This document shows positions 23,915 to 32,705 of a stretch of 41,037 bases of DNA, piece by piece (the stretch's first letter is position 1; each line of letters starts with the position of its first letter). The notes beneath the pieces were generated by a model. The model was not told the origin of the DNA. It saw nothing but the letters and a program-made list of their open reading frames with translations, and did not search any database. The stretch lies in the NCBI RefSeq assembly GCF_002802985.1, contig NZ_NVPT01000023.1:1-41037 (forward strand). The letters run 5' to 3'. The translations under genes were made by a program, and so were the position numbers. Origin of the DNA: Geodermatophilus chilensis. GTDB lineage: Bacteria > Actinomycetota > Actinomycetes > Mycobacteriales > Geodermatophilaceae.

Positions 23915-25909
23915 GTGGACACCGCAGTGACCGACCCCGTGGTCGGCCTCGTCCTCGAGGGGCGATACCTGCTCGAGGAGCGCCTCGCCCGGGGTGGGAT
24001 GTCCACCGTCTACGCCGCCACCGACCTGCGGCTGCACCGCACCGTCGCGGTCAAGGTGATGGCCGAGCACCTGGCGCACGACCCGACGTTCGTCGACCGG
24101 TTCACCCGCGAGGCGCGGGCCGCGGCCATGCTCAGCCACCCCAACGTCGTCTCGGTCAGCGACCAGGGCAGCGACCAGGGCCTGGTGTTCCTGGTGATGG
24201 AGCTGGTCCGCGGCCGCACGCTGCGCGACCTGCTGCAGGCCCGCGGCCGGCTCACCGTCGCCGAGGCCTTCGCCGTCCTGGAGCCGGTGCTCTCCGGGCT
24301 GACCGCCGCGCACCGCGCCGGGATCGTGCACCGCGACATCAAGCCCGAGAACGTGCTCATCGGCGCCGACGGCGTGGTGAAGGTCGCCGACTTCGGCCTG
24401 GCCCGCGCGCTGACCGGCACCGGCCAGACCAGCCACACCGGCGGGGTGCTCATCGGCACGGTCGCCTACCTCTCCCCCGAGCAGCTCGAGCGCGGCAAGG
24501 CCGACGCCCGCAGCGACGTCTACGCCGCCGGGGTCGTGCTCTACGAGATGCTCACCGGCCACCCGCCCTACGGCGGGGACACCCCGCTGGCCGTGGCCTA
24601 CCAGCACGTGCACCACGACATGCCGCGGCCGTCGGAGGAGGTGGCCGGCCTGCCGTGGGAGGTCGACGAGCTGGTCGCGCGCACCACCCGCCGCGAGCCC
24701 GCCGTCCGCCCGCTGGACGCCGGCGCGTTCCTCGCCGACCTCGAGGACGTGCGCAACGACGTGGGCATCGAGCGCGTGCCGGTGCCCACCGGCCGCAGCA
24801 CGGCCACCGCCGAGACGCTGCGGCCGACCAACCGGCCCAGCCGCCCGACCCGGCACACCGGCGACCCGGCCGCCCCGCGCACGGAGGTGCTCGGCCCCGG
24901 CGGCACCCGGCCCGGCCGCGGCAGCAGCCGCACCTCGATGCTGCCCGGCACCGTGTCCGGCACCGACCCGGGTGCCCGGCGGCCCGTGCCGGAGCGCATC
25001 CGCCCCGGCGTGCCGGCGCGCATCCGCCGCCGTCGCGCCCGGCTCGCCGTCGCCCTCGTGCTGCTCACCGCGATCACCATCGGCGCGGTGGGCTGGTGGC
25101 TGGGGTCCGGGCGGTGGACGACGGTGCCGCAGCTGGCCGGCACGGAGCAGGCAGCCGCGATCGACCTGCTGCAGGAGGCCGGGCTGACCCCCGACTGCTG
25201 CGAGGAGCAGTTCAGCGAGGACGTCCCCGAGGGCGTGGTCATCGCCGCGGAGCCCGACGGCGGTGAGGCCATCCGCGGCTCCGACGTCCGGCTGGTGGTC
25301 TCCAAGGGCCCGGAGCGCTTCGAGGCCGAGCCGACCCTGGTCGGCCTCCCGCTGGAGGAGGTCCGCACCGAGCTGCAGGACGTCCCGGTGGTCACCCGCG
25401 AGGTGCAGGACTACGACAACGACGTGCCGGTCGGCCACGTGACCGGCTTCGAGCCGAAGGCCGGCACCGAGCTCAAGCGCGGCCAGGAGCTGGTGATCTA
25501 CGTCAGCCGCGGGCACGAGCCGGTGACCGTGCCGGCCGTCGTCGGGCTCTCGCCGGAGGAGGCGACGGCCAACCTGTCGGCGCTGGGCTTCACCGTGGAG
25601 CGCACCGAGGGCCGCACCGCCGACGTCGACCCCGGCGAGGTCATGGCGGTCACCCCGGCCACCGGCGCGCAGGCGCCGTACCAGAGCACGGTGACCCTGC
25701 AGGTGTCTGTGGGGCTGCCGCAGGTGCAGGTGCCCGACGTGGTCGGCCGCAGCCAGCCGGAGGCGACCGCGCTGCTCGAGCAGGCCGGGCTGAAGGTGCA
25801 GGTGAGCCAGTTCTTCGGCGACCGGGTGTTCCGGCAGAGCCCGGCCGCCGGGCAGACGGTCGACATCGGCACCCCGGTGACGATCCTGGTGACGTTCGGA
25901 CAGGACTGA
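23915..25909 (+). CDS. pknL: PASTA-domain Ser/Thr protein kinase, PknL-like
   Basis: A 664-residue receptor-type Hanks kinase. The cytosolic kinase domain spans about 15-285: Gly-loop LARGGMSTVY, Lys47 in VAVKVM, HRD at 139-141 in HRDIKPEN, DFG at 159-161, and the activation-loop Thr-rich GTGQTSHTGG. A linker rich in Pro, Arg and Thr follows, one membrane helix (about 376-397), then four extracellular PASTA repeats (about 400-664) that bind peptidoglycan fragments or lipid II. The placement near an Rv2175c homologue identifies it as the PknL counterpart rather than PknB. GTG 23915 is preferred; GTG 23927 is an alternative. Confidence 0.92.
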   Translation: MDTAVTDPVVGLVLEGRYLLEERLARGGMSTVYAATDLRLHRTVAVKVMAEHLAHDPTFVDRFTREARAAAMLSHPNVVSVSDQGSDQGLVFLVMELVRGRTLRDLLQARGRLTVAEAFAVLEPVLSGLTAAHRAGIVHRDIKPENVLIGADGVVKVADFGLARALTGTGQTSHTGGVLIGTVAYLSPEQLERGKADARSDVYAAGVVLYEMLTGHPPYGGDTPLAVAYQHVHHDMPRPSEEVAGLPWEVDELVARTTRREPAVRPLDAGAFLADLEDVRNDVGIERVPVPTGRSTATAETLRPTNRPSRPTRHTGDPAAPRTEVLGPGGTRPGRGSSRTSMLPGTVSGTDPGARRPVPERIRPGVPARIRRRRARLAVALVLLTAITIGAVGWWLGSGRWTTVPQLAGTEQAAAIDLLQEAGLTPDCCEEQFSEDVPEGVVIAAEPDGGEAIRGSDVRLVVSKGPERFEAEPTLVGLPLEEVRTELQDVPVVTREVQDYDNDVPVGHVTGFEPKAGTELKRGQELVIYVSRGHEPVTVPAVVGLSPEEATANLSALGFTVERTEGRTADVDPGEVMAVTPATGAQAPYQSTVTLQVSVGLPQVQVPDVVGRSQPEATALLEQAGLKVQVSQFFGDRVFRQSPAAGQTVDIGTPVTILVTFGQD

Positions 25910-25932
25910 GGACACTGCGTACTGCTGCAGGC

Positions 25933-26808
25933 GTGCCGCCGATCGGGGCGCACATCCAGATCAAGGGCGGGCTGGCCACGGGCGGTCTGGCCTACACCGA
26001 CGCCGTCGCCGCGCGGGCCGTGCAGGTCTTCGTCGGCAACCCCCGCGGCTGGCGGCTGACCGCCGGCGACCCGAGGCAGGACGCGCGGTTCACCGCGGGC
26101 TGCGCCGAGCGCGGGGTGCCCTCGTTCATCCACACGCCGTTCCTGGTCAACGTCGGCTCCCCCACCGAGGCCACCGTCGAGCAGTCGATCGCGACCATCG
26201 CGCACAACCTGGCCCGCGGTGCCCAGCTGGGCTGCCAGGGCGTCGTCGTGCACGCCGGGTCCGCCGTCGGCGAGGACCGCTACGAGGACGCGCTGCGCCA
26301 GCTGCACGAGCGGCTGCTGCCTGTGCTCGAGGCGGCACCGGACGACGGCCCGCGGCTGCTGGTCGAGCCGACGGCCGGTGGCGGGAAGTCCCTCGCCGCC
26401 ACCGTCGAGGACCTCGGCCCGTACTTCGCCGCGCTCGAGCACCACCCGCTGCTCGGCGTCTGCTTCGACACCTGCCACGCCTGGGCGGCCGGCCACGAGC
26501 TCACCGCGCCCGGCGGCATGGCCGCGACCCTGGACGTGCTGGAGGCCACCGTCGGCCCCGGCCGGCTGGGCCTGGTGCACGCCAACGACTCGCTCGACGG
26601 GTGCGGCTCCAAGCGCGACCGGCACACCACCATCGGCGCCGGCTCGATCGGGGTGGCGCCGTTCGCCGAGCTGCTGGCCCACCCGTCGATGGCCGGCGTC
26701 CCGGTCGTCGTGGAGACCCCCAGCAAGGACGACGGGCACGCCAAGGACATCGCGCTGCTGTGCTCGCTGCGCGACGGCACGACGGACGCCGAGGCCACCG
26801 CCGCCTGA
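25933..26808 (+). CDS. nfo: Deoxyribonuclease IV (AP endonuclease, Xylose isomerase-like barrel)
   Basis: A 291-residue AP endonuclease family 2 protein, repairing abasic sites with a trinuclear zinc centre. Metal-binding blocks in order: GAHIQIKGGL, FIHTPFLVNVGSP, VVVHAGSAVGED, LLVEPTAGGGKSLA, GVCFDTCHAWAAGHEL, LVHANDSLDGCGSKRDRHTTIGAGSIG and VVETPSKDDGHAKD. The VEPTAG segment has Pro where most family members have Asn. GTG 25933 begins 23 bases after the kinase stop, so it may be read through from pknL. A small hairpin follows the stop. Confidence 0.9.
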   Translation: MPPIGAHIQIKGGLATGGLAYTDAVAARAVQVFVGNPRGWRLTAGDPRQDARFTAGCAERGVPSFIHTPFLVNVGSPTEATVEQSIATIAHNLARGAQLGCQGVVVHAGSAVGEDRYEDALRQLHERLLPVLEAAPDDGPRLLVEPTAGGGKSLAATVEDLGPYFAALEHHPLLGVCFDTCHAWAAGHELTAPGGMAATLDVLEATVGPGRLGLVHANDSLDGCGSKRDRHTTIGAGSIGVAPFAELLAHPSMAGVPVVVETPSKDDGHAKDIALLCSLRDGTTDAEATAA

Positions 26809-26826
26809 TCCGCCGTCCAACCCTCG

Positions 26827-26845
26827 GCGTGTCGGCGTGACACGC
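26827..26845. terminator. Hairpin after the endonuclease IV gene
   Basis: GCGTGTC and GACACGC pair around GGCGT, nested within ATCCGC (26808-26813) and GCGGAT (26844-26849). It lies just past the nfo stop and ahead of the subtilisin gene, a likely terminator. Confidence 0.45.
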
Positions 26846-26955
26846 GGATATGACGCTGTGGACTCGCGTGCTCACTTGCGGTGAGCCCCGTCAGGACGTT
26901 GGCTGCAGGCACCGCGGTCGCCGGGCCGCGGGGAGCCCGTCCGAGGAGCCGTCCT

Positions 26956-28134
<1,179 letters not shown>

Positions 28135-28142
28135 CCCCGGCC

Positions 28143-28207
28143 GGCGACGGTGTGCGCCGGCGCGCAGTTCTCCCCGCGGGAGCCACGCATCAGCGCACAC
28201 CGTCGCC
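28143..28207. repeat. Left flanking hairpin of the DUF559 gene
   Basis: Perfect 15-bp arms GGCGACGGTGTGCGC (28143-28157) and its complement (28193-28207) enclose 35 bases that contain GCGCAGTTCTC. The right arm overlaps the last five codons of the DUF559 gene. Bases 28186-28205 are repeated exactly at 29215-29234. Confidence 0.8.
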
Positions 28208-29110
28208 GCGCAGCAGCCGCAACCGGCCGGCGTGCACGGCGCGGACGTCCTGCCGGCAGGCCTCGGGCGAGCCGGTCATGCGGCGGTAGCTGAACCGCAG
28301 GGTCTGCCAGCCGACCGTCGCGACCAGGGCGTCGCGCCGGATGTCGGACTCGCGCTGGGCCCGCGACCCGTGCCAGGCCGCACCGTCCATCTCGACGGCG
28401 AGCATCGACTCCTCGCAAGCGGCATCGAGCAGGAAGGTCTCGCCACCCACCGTCACCGGCCGCTGCTGGACGAAGGCGGGCATGTCCGGTGCCCGCAGCA
28501 CCTGCAGGCACCCCCAGATCTCCAGCTCGCTCCGGCAGCCGTCGGCGAGCAGGCCGACCAGCTCTGCCAGCTCCGCGCGGCCGGGCAGCCGCGTGTTGCG
28601 CGCGAGCTCGTACCGCAGCTCGCGGGGCGAACACAGCCGTTGACGAACGGCGGTGATCGCCGCAGCCCTGACCTGCACCCGCGGGAGGAGAGCCGGACGG
28701 CCCCAGGTGTCGACGACGGCACGCTCCACGGCGCTGATCGCCAGCCCGTCGACCCGGCGCCGGTCGGCGTAGGCGTCCGCCGCCCGGTGCACCACCACCC
28801 CCGGCGAGCCGCGACCGCTCTTGCCGAGGTCGACCGTGACGTGCACCGGACCAGGCGGGTGGTCGGTCAGCTCCCACAGGGCGAGGGCGGTTGCGTGACT
28901 CGCGACGGCCTCCCTCCCGTGTAGTGCCGCCGCCACCCTGACGCGCCAGTCCCCCGCGGCGACCGGCAGGGCGAGGACCCCGGGCTCGAGCCGGACCAGT
29001 CTGCCCGCCGCCACCCAACTGCGGAGGGTGCTCCGGCTGACCTCCCTGAGGAGCTCGGGAGCAGGGACCCAACCGGCCTCGCCCACGAGTTGCCTGGGGT
29101 CTCGCGCCAC
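28190..29110 (-). CDS. DUF559 endonuclease-like protein with AbiEi-type N-terminal domain
   Basis: A 306-residue protein. The N-terminal part (ELLREVSRSTLRSWVAAGRLVRLEPGVLALP) is the winged-helix domain seen in AbiEi-like antitoxins. The middle AVERAVVDTWGRP and a helical RCELE-like region lead to a C-terminal Vsr/DUF559 nuclease-like core (FLLDAACEESMLAVEMDG, then W, then RRDALVATVGWQTLRFSYRRM) with the Asp, Glu-x-Asp acidic residues expected for cleavage. No AbiEii partner is adjacent. GTG 29110 is used. The gene is flanked by related hairpins and a direct repeat. The function of these multicopy actinobacterial proteins is not established. Confidence 0.78.
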   Translation of the reverse strand: MARDPRQLVGEAGWVPAPELLREVSRSTLRSWVAAGRLVRLEPGVLALPVAAGDWRVRVAAALHGREAVASHATALALWELTDHPPGPVHVTVDLGKSGRGSPGVVVHRAADAYADRRRVDGLAISAVERAVVDTWGRPALLPRVQVRAAAITAVRQRLCSPRELRYELARNTRLPGRAELAELVGLLADGCRSELEIWGCLQVLRAPDMPAFVQQRPVTVGGETFLLDAACEESMLAVEMDGAAWHGSRAQRESDIRRDALVATVGWQTLRFSYRRMTGSPEACRQDVRAVHAGRLRLLRGDGVR

Positions 29111-29172
29111 CGCCTCAGCCTCGCCGAGGTCGAACCTCCACGACCGCGGTTCGCGAGACGTGTGGACAGCCG

Positions 29173-29235
29173 CCGACGCTGTGCACGGATGCGCAGGCCG
29201 CGGACCGAGAACTGCGCATCAGCGCACACCGTCGG
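29173..29235. repeat. Right flanking hairpin of the DUF559 gene
   Basis: Arms 29173-29196 and 29212-29235 pair at 21 of 24 positions around 15 bases. The right arm carries the same CGACGGTGTGCGC-type sequence as the left flank, and 29215-29234 equals 28186-28205. Read on the minus strand it resembles the gene's own 3' end (GDGVR, stop, then TGCGCAGTTCTC). Confidence 0.75.
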
Positions 29236-29237
29236 CC

Positions 29238-29290
29238 TCCCTGCAGGGTCCCGCCGCGAGCTCGCGAGTGGCGGGGGCAGGGAGGTCCTT
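29238..29290 (-). repeat. Intergenic palindromic repeat, locus 3
   Basis: Single module, nearly identical to 5352-5404. On the minus strand it starts two bases after the ltaE stop as AAGGACC and ends in GGCGGGACCCTGCAGGG. The centre CTCGCGAGCTCG is identical to locus 1. Confidence 0.78.
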
Positions 29291-29292
29291 CG

Positions 29293-30308
29293 TCAACGGT
29301 CGAGCAGCTCCGCCAGGACGTCGGCGGCGCGCTCGACGCCGGCGCGGTCGACGCCGAGGTTGGTCACCAGCCGCAGCCGGCGGTCACTGACCTGGGAGAC
29401 GAGGACGCCCTGCGCCTTGGCGGCCTCGGCCACGACCGGCGCGGGGACGTCGTCCAGCCGCACGATGTTGGTCTGCACCGTGGCCGGGTCGACCCCGAGC
29501 CGCTTGGCCAGCAGCTGCGCGTGCTCGTGGTCCTCGGCCAGCCGGTCGAGCTGGGTGTCGAGCGCGTACCGCCCGGCCGCGGCCAGCACCCCGGCCTGCC
29601 GCATCCCGCCGCCGAGCCGCTTGCGCCACAGCCGGGCGGCGGCGATCCGCTCGGCGGAGGCGACGAGCACCGAGCCGACCGGCGCGCCCAGCCCCTTGGA
29701 CAGGCAGACCGAGGCGGTGTCGGCCAGCCCGCCGTAGGTGGCCAGGTCCACGCCGGTGGCCACGGAGGCGTTCCAGATCCGCGCGCCGTCGAGGTGCACG
29801 TTGACGCCGGCCTGCCGCGACCAGTCCCACAGCGCCTGCAGCTGGTTCAGCGGCTGCACCAGCCCACCGCCGCGGTTGTGCGTGTTCTCCACGGCGACGG
29901 CGGCGGTCGCGGTGAGGTGCCAGTTGCCGTGCGGGCGCACCTGGTCGACCAGCTGCGCCGCGTCGAGCCGGCCGCCGTCCGAGACCACGGTGCGGGTGGA
30001 GATGCCGAACAGCACCGCGGCCGCACCCATCTCGTAGGTGACGATGTGCGCCTCGGAGTCGCAGAGCACCTCCTGGCCCGGCTCGCAGACCAGCCGCAGG
30101 CCGATCTGGTTGCCCATCGTCCCGGAGGGTACGAACAGCCCCGCCTCGTGGCCGAAGAGGCCCGCGACCCGCTCCTCGAGCGCGTTGACGGTCGGGTCCT
30201 CGCCGTAGACGTCGTCCCCCACCTCGGCCTCGGCCATCGCCTGGCGCATGCCGGGCGAGGGCTTCGTGACCGTGTCCGACCGCAGGTCGACCAGCTCGGC
30301 GGTGCCCA

Positions 30309-30309
<1 letters not shown>
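29293..30309 (-). CDS. ltaE: Low-specificity L-threonine aldolase
   Basis: A 338-residue PLP enzyme of the beta-eliminating lyase family that cleaves L-threonine or allo-threonine to glycine and acetaldehyde. It begins VDLRSDTVTKPSPGMRQAM, then GDDVYGEDPTVNALE and FVPSGTMGNQI. NVHLDGARIWNA binds the cofactor and the PLP lysine is in SVCLSKGLGAPVGSVL. The ATG at 30309 overlaps the DAHP synthase stop by one base, making pfkA-aroG-ltaE a likely operon. A palindromic repeat closes it. Confidence 0.92.
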
Positions 30310-31682
<1,373 letters not shown>

Positions 31683-32705
31683 TCAGCCGAAGAAGACCTC
31701 GACCTCCGCGTAGCGCTCGACGGGCACCAGCTTCAACTGGGCGGTGGCCTCGGCCAGCGGCACGCGCACGATGTCGGTGCCGCGCAGCGCCACCATCACG
31801 CCGGTCTCGCCGGCGTGCACCGCCTCGAGGGCGGCCAGCCCGAAGCGGGTGGCCAGCACCCGGTCGAACGGCGAGGGGGTGCCGCCGCGCTGGATGTGCC
31901 CGAGGACGACGGCCCGCGCCTCCCGGCCGGTGCGCTGCTCGATCAGCGAGGCCAGCGCCGTGCCGATGCCGCCGAGGCGGACGTGGCCGAACGCGTCGCG
32001 CTCCCCCGTCGCCAGCACCAGGTCGCCGTCCAGGGGCTTGGCTCCCTCGGAGACCACCACGATCGGTGAGTAGCCGGAGTCGAAGCGGCGCTGGCAGTGC
32101 GCGACGACGGCGTCGACGTCGAAGGGCTGCTCGGGGATGAGGACGACGGTGGCGCCGCCGGCCATCCCCGCGTGCAGGGCGATCCACCCGGCGTGCCGGC
32201 CCATCACCTCGACGACGAGCGTGCGGTGGTGGCTGTCACCGGTGGTGTGCAGCCGGTCGATCGCCTCGGTGGCCACGCCGAGGGCGGTGTCGAAGCCGAA
32301 GGTGTAGTCGGTGGCGTCGAGGTCGTTGTCGATGGTCTTGGGGACGCCGACCACCCGCACGCCGGCCTCGGCGATCCGGGTGGCCACGCCGAGGGTGTCC
32401 TCGCCGCCGATCGGGATCAGCGCGTCGACGCGGAGCCGCTCGAGCGTGGCGAGCACCCGGTCGGCGCCGCCCTCCAGCGCGTAGGGGTTGGTGCGGGACG
32501 TGCCCAGGACGGTGCCGCCGCGGGGCAGGATGCCGCGGACGGCGGCGAGGTCCATCGGCACGGTGTCGCCCTCGAGGGCACCGCGCCAGCCGTCGCGGAA
32601 GCCGACCACCTCGTCGCCGCACTGCACGCTCTTGCGGACGATGGCGCGGATGACCGCGTTGAGACCCGGGCAGTCGCCGCCGCCGGTCAGGATTCCGATG
32701 CGCAT
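31683..32705 (-). CDS. pfkA: 6-phosphofructokinase, predicted pyrophosphate-dependent
   Basis: A 340-residue PFK that phosphorylates fructose-6-phosphate. MRIGILTGGGDCPGLN binds the phosphoryl donor; PKTIDNDL contains the catalytic Asp; EVMGRHAGW and HIQRGGTPSPFDR bind sugar phosphate. In PIGGEDTLG, Asp103 takes the place of E. coli Gly104, and Lys123 in PKTIDND that of Gly124. In the literature on this family Asp104/Lys124 marks PPi-dependent enzymes such as that of Amycolatopsis methanolica, while ATP enzymes have Gly104. PPi use would make the step reversible. ATG 32705 has GGAGGA upstream. First gene of pfkA-aroG-ltaE. Confidence 0.9.
   Translation of the reverse strand: MRIGILTGGGDCPGLNAVIRAIVRKSVQCGDEVVGFRDGWRGALEGDTVPMDLAAVRGILPRGGTVLGTSRTNPYALEGGADRVLATLERLRVDALIPIGGEDTLGVATRIAEAGVRVVGVPKTIDNDLDATDYTFGFDTALGVATEAIDRLHTTGDSHHRTLVVEVMGRHAGWIALHAGMAGGATVVLIPEQPFDVDAVVAHCQRRFDSGYSPIVVVSEGAKPLDGDLVLATGERDAFGHVRLGGIGTALASLIEQRTGREARAVVLGHIQRGGTPSPFDRVLATRFGLAALEAVHAGETGVMVALRGTDIVRVPLAEATAQLKLVPVERYAEVEVFFG

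Follow-up and report, generated by a model that had tools for sequence, protein, structure and literature searches.

Does a DUF559 gene that lies between two hairpins in a soil actinobacterium form a mobile unit together with these hairpins, or does it simply stand beside them? The question is raised by a 41,037-nucleotide stretch of Geodermatophilus chilensis DNA, here called the window, in which the arrangement is suggestive of an uncommon type of mobile DNA. The gene is located between two convergent neighbours, which we take from their translations to be a subtilisin-like gene and ltaE, and the left hairpin begins 8 bases past the stop codon of the former. The features are collected in Table 1.

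Table 1. Features around the DUF559 gene, in positions of the window
Feature	Position	Strand	Remarks
Subtilisin-like gene	26881-28134	plus	
Downstream palindrome (left hairpin)	28143-28207		Covers the 3' end of the DUF559 gene, whose stop codon falls within it
AbiEi-like/DUF559 gene	28190-29110	minus	306 codons, GTG start as listed; further-upstream start possible
DUF559/nuclease-like domain	28247-28528	minus	Residues 195-288
DnaA-box-like 9-mer CTGTCCACA	29161-29169	minus	Just inside the upstream palindrome
Upstream palindrome (right hairpin)	29172-29236		Separates the DUF559 gene from the stop codon of ltaE
ltaE	~29293-30309	minus	

The first-pass annotation, made from the letters of the DNA, had described an AbiEi-type part and a DUF559 nuclease-like core in the encoded protein, and the searches recover both. 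PADLOC AbiEi models cover residues 24-173 at E 2e-21, and Pfam DUF559 is matched with 34 bits against a cut-off of 20.6, while MTES_1575 REase, a family described as Vsr-like (PMC3710099), stays slightly under its cut-off (37.4 vs 38.2) and AbiEi_4 gives a weak match below its own. Over 21 homologues, Pfam reports solely MTES_1575 (21/21), DUF559 (21/21) and AbiEi_4 (13/21); a Y1 (HUH) transposase domain was not found by Pfam in the bracketed gene or in these homologues. Residues E195, E197, D242, H247, D256 and D260 are invariant across the 21 aligned proteins. Relatives of the AbiEi-DUF559 protein are common in the class, as profile A2 matches 145 of 246 sampled genomes at E 1e-10.

An AlphaFold2 model built on the 21-homologue alignment (pLDDT 90.8, pTM 0.84) was compared with the PDB by Foldseek. 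The best matches are the AbiEi antitoxin 6y8q (E 7e-6) and Rv2827c 1zel (E 4e-5), the only two to reach E 0.001. The weaker ones, which sit among some unrelated-looking matches of similar E-value, include PvuRts1I 4oq2 (E 0.0085), 3hrl (TM by target 0.72, E 0.1) and, as a fold-level comparison, the I-Bth0305I domain 3r3p (TM by target 0.68-0.72, E 0.021-0.036), whose best-TM match is chain A with 0.72 by target, 3.1 A and E 0.036. In a profile search, 3hrl was matched with an E of 0.006 and PvuRts1I with about 0.7. The modelled protein consists of an AbiEi-like part and a domain resembling the homing endonuclease I-Bth0305I. No AbiEii partner was evident by eye among the open reading frames from 25500 to 32000. 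Carriage by a phage or a plasmid was discarded: the protein has no phage match and two weak plasmid matches, which cover 44% and 22% of it.

The two hairpins are real. As RNA, either strand folds with z-scores between -5.7 and -7.2, a stability that 0 of 200 shuffles reach. The perfect 20-bp direct repeat that had been reported between them is also confirmed (28186-28205 equals 29215-29234) and is far above the shuffle expectation, with four window matches at up to three mismatches, one per arm, vs a mean of 0.06. The GCGCAGTTCTC unit alone is not beyond chance at one mismatch (four window matches against 1.11 expected, a number reached by 2 of 100 shuffles). The two 66-bp hairpin copies are 74% alike, and both are members of one dispersed palindrome family of ~61 bp (span ~61-65 bp). 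The suggestion that the right copy stems from a tandem duplication of the gene finds no support, since a coding remnant was not seen at the upstream palindrome and the ends pair in other genomes as well. A known RNA family was rejected as the identity of the palindrome, the nine microRNA-type matches all lying below gathering scores (E 0.07-0.6).

The family extends beyond the window. Allowing up to two mismatches, its core pattern has six sites in the same genome (G000): the two hairpins, which bracket the gene, and four sites on contigs C7, C24, C159 and C344, on which no DUF559 match was found. By the letter, the refuting condition named in the first-pass annotation, repeats located mainly away from DUF559 genes, thus applies in this genome; we regard the four sites as solitary members of a REP-like family and do not take them to refute the idea. 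Across 26 genomes, which we infer to represent the genus Geodermatophilus, the core pattern matches 13, several of these matches being without a second arm (e.g. L018, L019, L029, L030, L037), and the reversed control matches none. An alignment of 22 copies (A1), picked for having both arms so that its stem pair counts are biased, has a 26-bp stem with 86% of cells paired vs 23-51% when slid; 12 pairs are changed on both sides, and 0 of 500 shuffles are as good. The covariance model built from these copies (R1, type A) includes both window copies and a cassette copy of G012, and so finds its own members in the left hairpin (28145-28205, 73 bits) and the right one (29174-29234, 75.6 bits). With 150 candidates scored in each genome, at least 24 of the 26 genomes have a type-A palindrome at E 0.01 among the matches listed.

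Within the genus, the gene and the palindromes go together. Sixteen clade-A genes, with 59-100% identity to P0001, are located at several places, beside ltaE/subtilisin, beside genes that we take from their translations to be clpX, cimA and ctaB/ctaA, and at others. An R1 palindrome stands on both sides of 14 of them (flank matches accepted at E up to 1, the weakest being 0.015); the remaining two (G012, G025) have it on one side. The offsets are alike in most cases. In most of the other DUF559 clades that were examined, the arrangement recurs with a palindrome type of their own, namely GGTGATGTGCGG... in clade B, GTTGAACGCC... in clade C (clear on both sides in G000 only), GATCATGAAGTC... in clade D and GGCATAGGAAGC... 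in clade E.

We compared 76 of the 80 named DUF559 loci (L200, L233, L242 and L267 were dropped for short flanks) with 152 control intervals drawn from the flanks. Palindromes of at least 44 bp occur on both sides in 45/76 loci vs 1/152 controls, and 31/76 have no detected pair; counted by side, they are present upstream in 52/76 vs 7/152 and downstream in 60/76 vs 19/152. The 76 loci are not independent, because they share sites and some of their genomes also appear under G numbers. The two palindromes of a locus also resemble each other, with a mean similarity of 29.9 vs 15.0 and 17.5 in controls and values above the 99th percentile of the controls in 39/76 loci; a shuffled-pair control was left out, since homologous flanks contaminate it (maximum 145). 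Among 27 loci of the wider class and four of the window's own genome, the palindrome is on both sides in 11/31 and a pair is missing in 20/31, and at L277 the pair is unlike at its two ends. The wider-locus counts of palindromes and of the 9-mer described below leave out L291 and L292. No rule was found for the relative orientation of the left and right palindromes (19 inverted, 19 direct, 15 ties, n=53).

The third recurrent part is the short site CTGTCCACA, one mismatch away from TTRTCCACA, the DnaA-box consensus. Within 160 bases upstream of the gene, GTCCACAG or TGTCCACA is found on the gene strand in 59/76 loci and on the other strand in 0/76, vs 8/2508 forward and 0/2508 reverse control windows. 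At up to one mismatch, the 9-mer is present in 40/76 named loci vs 22/4408 control windows and in 19/27 wider loci vs 2/289, a test that is partly after the fact because the motif was noticed in the loci that were then counted, 8 of the 27 wider ones among them. In many cassettes the site is on the gene strand, at the inner edge of the upstream palindrome (L192-L271, L273-L301). It may serve as a promoter component, bind DnaA or belong to the end of the element.

Of 25 cassettes entered into a comparison by clade and site, 18 have both palindromes; for L085 the downstream pick is the clpX terminator. Similarity is 27.3 within the same cassette (n=18), 15.5 for the same clade at another site (n=90) and 17.5 for the same clade at the same site in another genome (n=81). 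Between clades it is 8.7 at the same site (n=85) and 8.1 at other sites (n=188). On the similarity of these letters, the palindromes track the DUF559 clade, not the site.

Cassettes change from genome to genome downstream of clpX, which was found in 25 of the 26 genomes; all 25 downstream stretches were read, 12 of them by eye. Ten hold clade A in one orientation; six hold B and three hold C in the other. G017 has an internally deleted B cassette, consisting of two B palindromes around a short remnant (L153, G017:C10, about 440-633). By tblastn with representative queries only, no DUF559 match was obtained at clpX in G013, G014, G018 and G025, and the stretch of G001 stops at a contig edge. 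Broken copies are present in G002, G005, G010, G019 and G024. On a tree made from ltaE, clpX and valS, five rows of which are less than half filled, the cassette type requires at least 12 changes over 24 rows, and at least 10 among the 20 occupied rows when the deleted B is scored as B. Tree neighbours carry different cassettes: G009 and G011, both with A, are grouped with G008, which has B, and G012 (A) is grouped with G022 (C). At the right end of L152 (G000:C39), where the contig ends, a frame begins beside the clade-C palindrome that, read by eye, resembles the start of an IS630-type transposase.

Occupation of the ltaE site varies as well. The other refuting condition of the first-pass annotation, a gene at the same place in all relatives, does not apply: a clade-A gene adjoins ltaE in 3 of 25 genomes with a clear ltaE (G000, G012, G023), homologues with related palindromes stand at other loci, and in nine further genomes subtilisin is the direct neighbour of ltaE and the clade-A gene is missing. 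Three of these nine (G017, G025, G005) have one type-A palindrome at the site. G018 holds a different DUF559 clade there (L185, 1084-1905, minus) with a TGATCACCACGC-type palindrome beside it. An exact empty counterpart junction or a target duplication was seen for none of the insertions. Between G000 and G023, the fourfold-site identity of the DUF559 gene (69.3%) is comparable to the values for the adjacent genes (64.4% and 73.5%), so that the insertion looks old and not evidently transferred, and a recent transfer at this site is unsupported. The idea that the ltaE palindromes are one inherited target was also set aside, as they are not significantly more alike than palindromes elsewhere (p 0.089).

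Palindromes also recur alone. From 38 type-A contexts away from listed DUF559 genes, seven of which repeat the same site, 31 are distinct. Classed by their neighbouring genes in a crude reading-frame test, 16 are convergent, 3 tandem, 0 divergent and 5 in an ORF-like frame, and 7 were left unplaced. Type-A palindromes also occur where no clade-A gene was listed, e.g. in G022 and G001. Cassette ends included, type-E palindromes are present in 11 of the 26 genomes (37 copies in G018 and 10 in either of G002 and G010), and 13 genomes of another family (f21), chosen for having several DUF559 matches, contain 10-118 CATGATCAT palindromes each; the reversed control is 0 for both.

The lone copies were then compared with the cassettes. 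For all 30 lone E palindromes compared in G018, the resident cassette is the nearest of four candidates; the other seven of the 37 copies are two cassette ends, three 60-base copies, one other and one unprinted. The resident cassette is the best match for 5/10 in G002 and for 2/5 in G006, whose sixth copy adjoins its gene. Hand-picked family-f21 subsets (G242, 13/46; G179, 10/15) were kept out of this comparison. Ten lone copies of G159, selected by eye for a shared core from 27, agree at 49-52 of 53 positions with the ends of a single resident cassette. By the crude reading they are 4 convergent, 5 tandem and 1 divergent, so that the preference for convergent genes in the genus does not extend to all genomes. 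The palindromes thus recur scattered through genomes and, as far as their letters tell, are similar to a resident cassette in some of them.

Comparison between the genomes shows that the parts go together and that a single site can hold one clade in one genome and another clade, also in another orientation, in the next; from the same comparison we infer mobility. We assign a probability of about 0.6 to the reading that the gene and its two palindromes constitute one mobile, selfish-type cassette, nuclease-driven dispersal included. The earlier idea of a palindrome-bracketed single-gene mobile cassette was largely right: the bracketing is supported across relatives, although lone repeats exist as well.

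Such a cassette would run in the order palindrome, DnaA-box-like site, AbiEi/DUF559 gene, palindrome. Its AbiEi-like part may bind its own palindromes, the Vsr/EDxHD nuclease part may cut at or beside one, and repair of the break would copy the cassette or a lone palindrome into the cut. The route might be homing onto a dispersed palindrome or a REP/RAYT-like dispersal, and lone palindromes could be non-autonomous copies, targets, or scars after gene loss. Since strong hairpins at gene ends may terminate transcription, insertions there could be harmless. More tentatively, and with somewhat less than even confidence, we suggest that AbiEi-DUF559 genes across actinobacteria are the enzymes of an undescribed class of mobile DNA, in which the nuclease would spread the cassette and lone palindromes alike by cutting its own palindromes, DnaA perhaps opening the element.

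An autoregulated gene is the strongest competing explanation, although we consider it unlikely. Here, the AbiEi-like part would bind the palindromes as operator-terminators and so regulate its own gene and perhaps others too, the cassette would spread passively by ordinary recombination, and the nuclease would do another task, e.g. defence. AbiEi of Streptococcus agalactiae is reported to autoregulate by binding inverted repeats (PMC7319586), which supports palindrome binding in the cassette and also this regulatory alternative, and the PADLOC matches of the protein fit it too. So does the position of the palindromes, which are strong hairpins often found at gene ends: one stands close after the clpX stop codon in G000 and G022, and the other 10 of the 12 stretches read by eye have a short hairpin there. 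However, a downstream copy with a shared core is not readily explained by autoregulation, nor are lone sets that match one resident cassette or the turnover of clades at one site.

Less probable still is that the palindromes are host repeats moved by a RAYT or an insertion-sequence transposase, and that DUF559 genes settle in them. Insertion sequences have been reported to target REP palindromes (PMC1525189), and the palindromes are retained in genomes for which no matching gene was listed. Nevertheless, the palindrome type tracks the DUF559 clade, and in some genomes the core variants track the individual cassette, which argues against independent host repeats. That chance or ordinary terminators flank an ordinary gene is very improbable. 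Short terminator-like hairpins at several of these sites and single long palindromes in some control intervals speak for it; against it stand the long pair in just one of 152 controls, the sequence shared by the two ends, and the recurrent 9-mer.

Of the known systems, the nearest in organisation are REP/RAYT systems (REPtrons, REPINs), with an unrelated enzyme. In both, an enzyme gene lies between palindromes, copies are dispersed and the palindrome type is tied to the gene, although not all DUF559 loci have a detected pair. RAYT genes are described as flanked by GTAG palindromes, CGTC palindromes apparently being without a dedicated transposase (PMC3733652). The cassette enzyme, in contrast, is AbiEi plus DUF559 (Vsr/EDxHD-like) without a Pfam Y1 match, the cassettes have a DnaA-box-like site, and their palindromes are mostly about 45-75 bp long vs the 20-40 bp given for REPs (PMC3733652). 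Because no Y1 domain was found by Pfam, we do not count the cassettes among REP/RAYT systems. The main text of a 2025 REP survey is without mention of transposase, DUF or endonuclease (PMC12306157).

For the nuclease domain, EDxHD homing endonucleases are the closest named match. The modelled fold of the putative catalytic domain weakly resembles that of I-Bth0305I, whose target spans nearly 60 bp according to a review (PMC3943268), and a single nuclease gene occupies variable sites in both cases; the cassettes differ in their AbiEi-type N-terminal part, their paired palindromic ends and their scattered further copies. The N-terminal part is shared with AbiE type IV toxin-antitoxin systems (by PADLOC and by the 6y8q fold), whereas the AbiEi-like part here is fused to a nuclease-like domain. 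Elements of the IS200/IS605 type carry one gene between hairpin ends, as the cassette does, but a Y1 (HUH) domain was not found in the cassette gene.

DUF559 is still a domain of unknown function in Pfam, and searches of openly licensed papers found nothing that links it to palindromes, homing endonucleases, inverted repeats or actinobacterial transposases. If the cassette reading is true, DUF559-type genes would gain a role as selfish palindrome mobilisers, comparable but unrelated to RAYT. Actinobacterial palindrome families would gain a dedicated enzyme, and palindrome-driven mobile DNA a second, unrelated enzyme type.

The vicinity of ltaE contains further palindromes. One long type, GAACACACGTCAGG..., carries no assigned DUF559 clade and is located at the ltaE site in L179 (G008; 1046-1102, ltaE-oriented) and in L048 (G011; 2597-2651). 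In the window, another palindromic stretch (CCTCCCTGCAGGG..., 29236-29285) adjoins ltaE and looks like a separate repeat family, and letters similar to it are found near ltaE in G008, G009 and G011.
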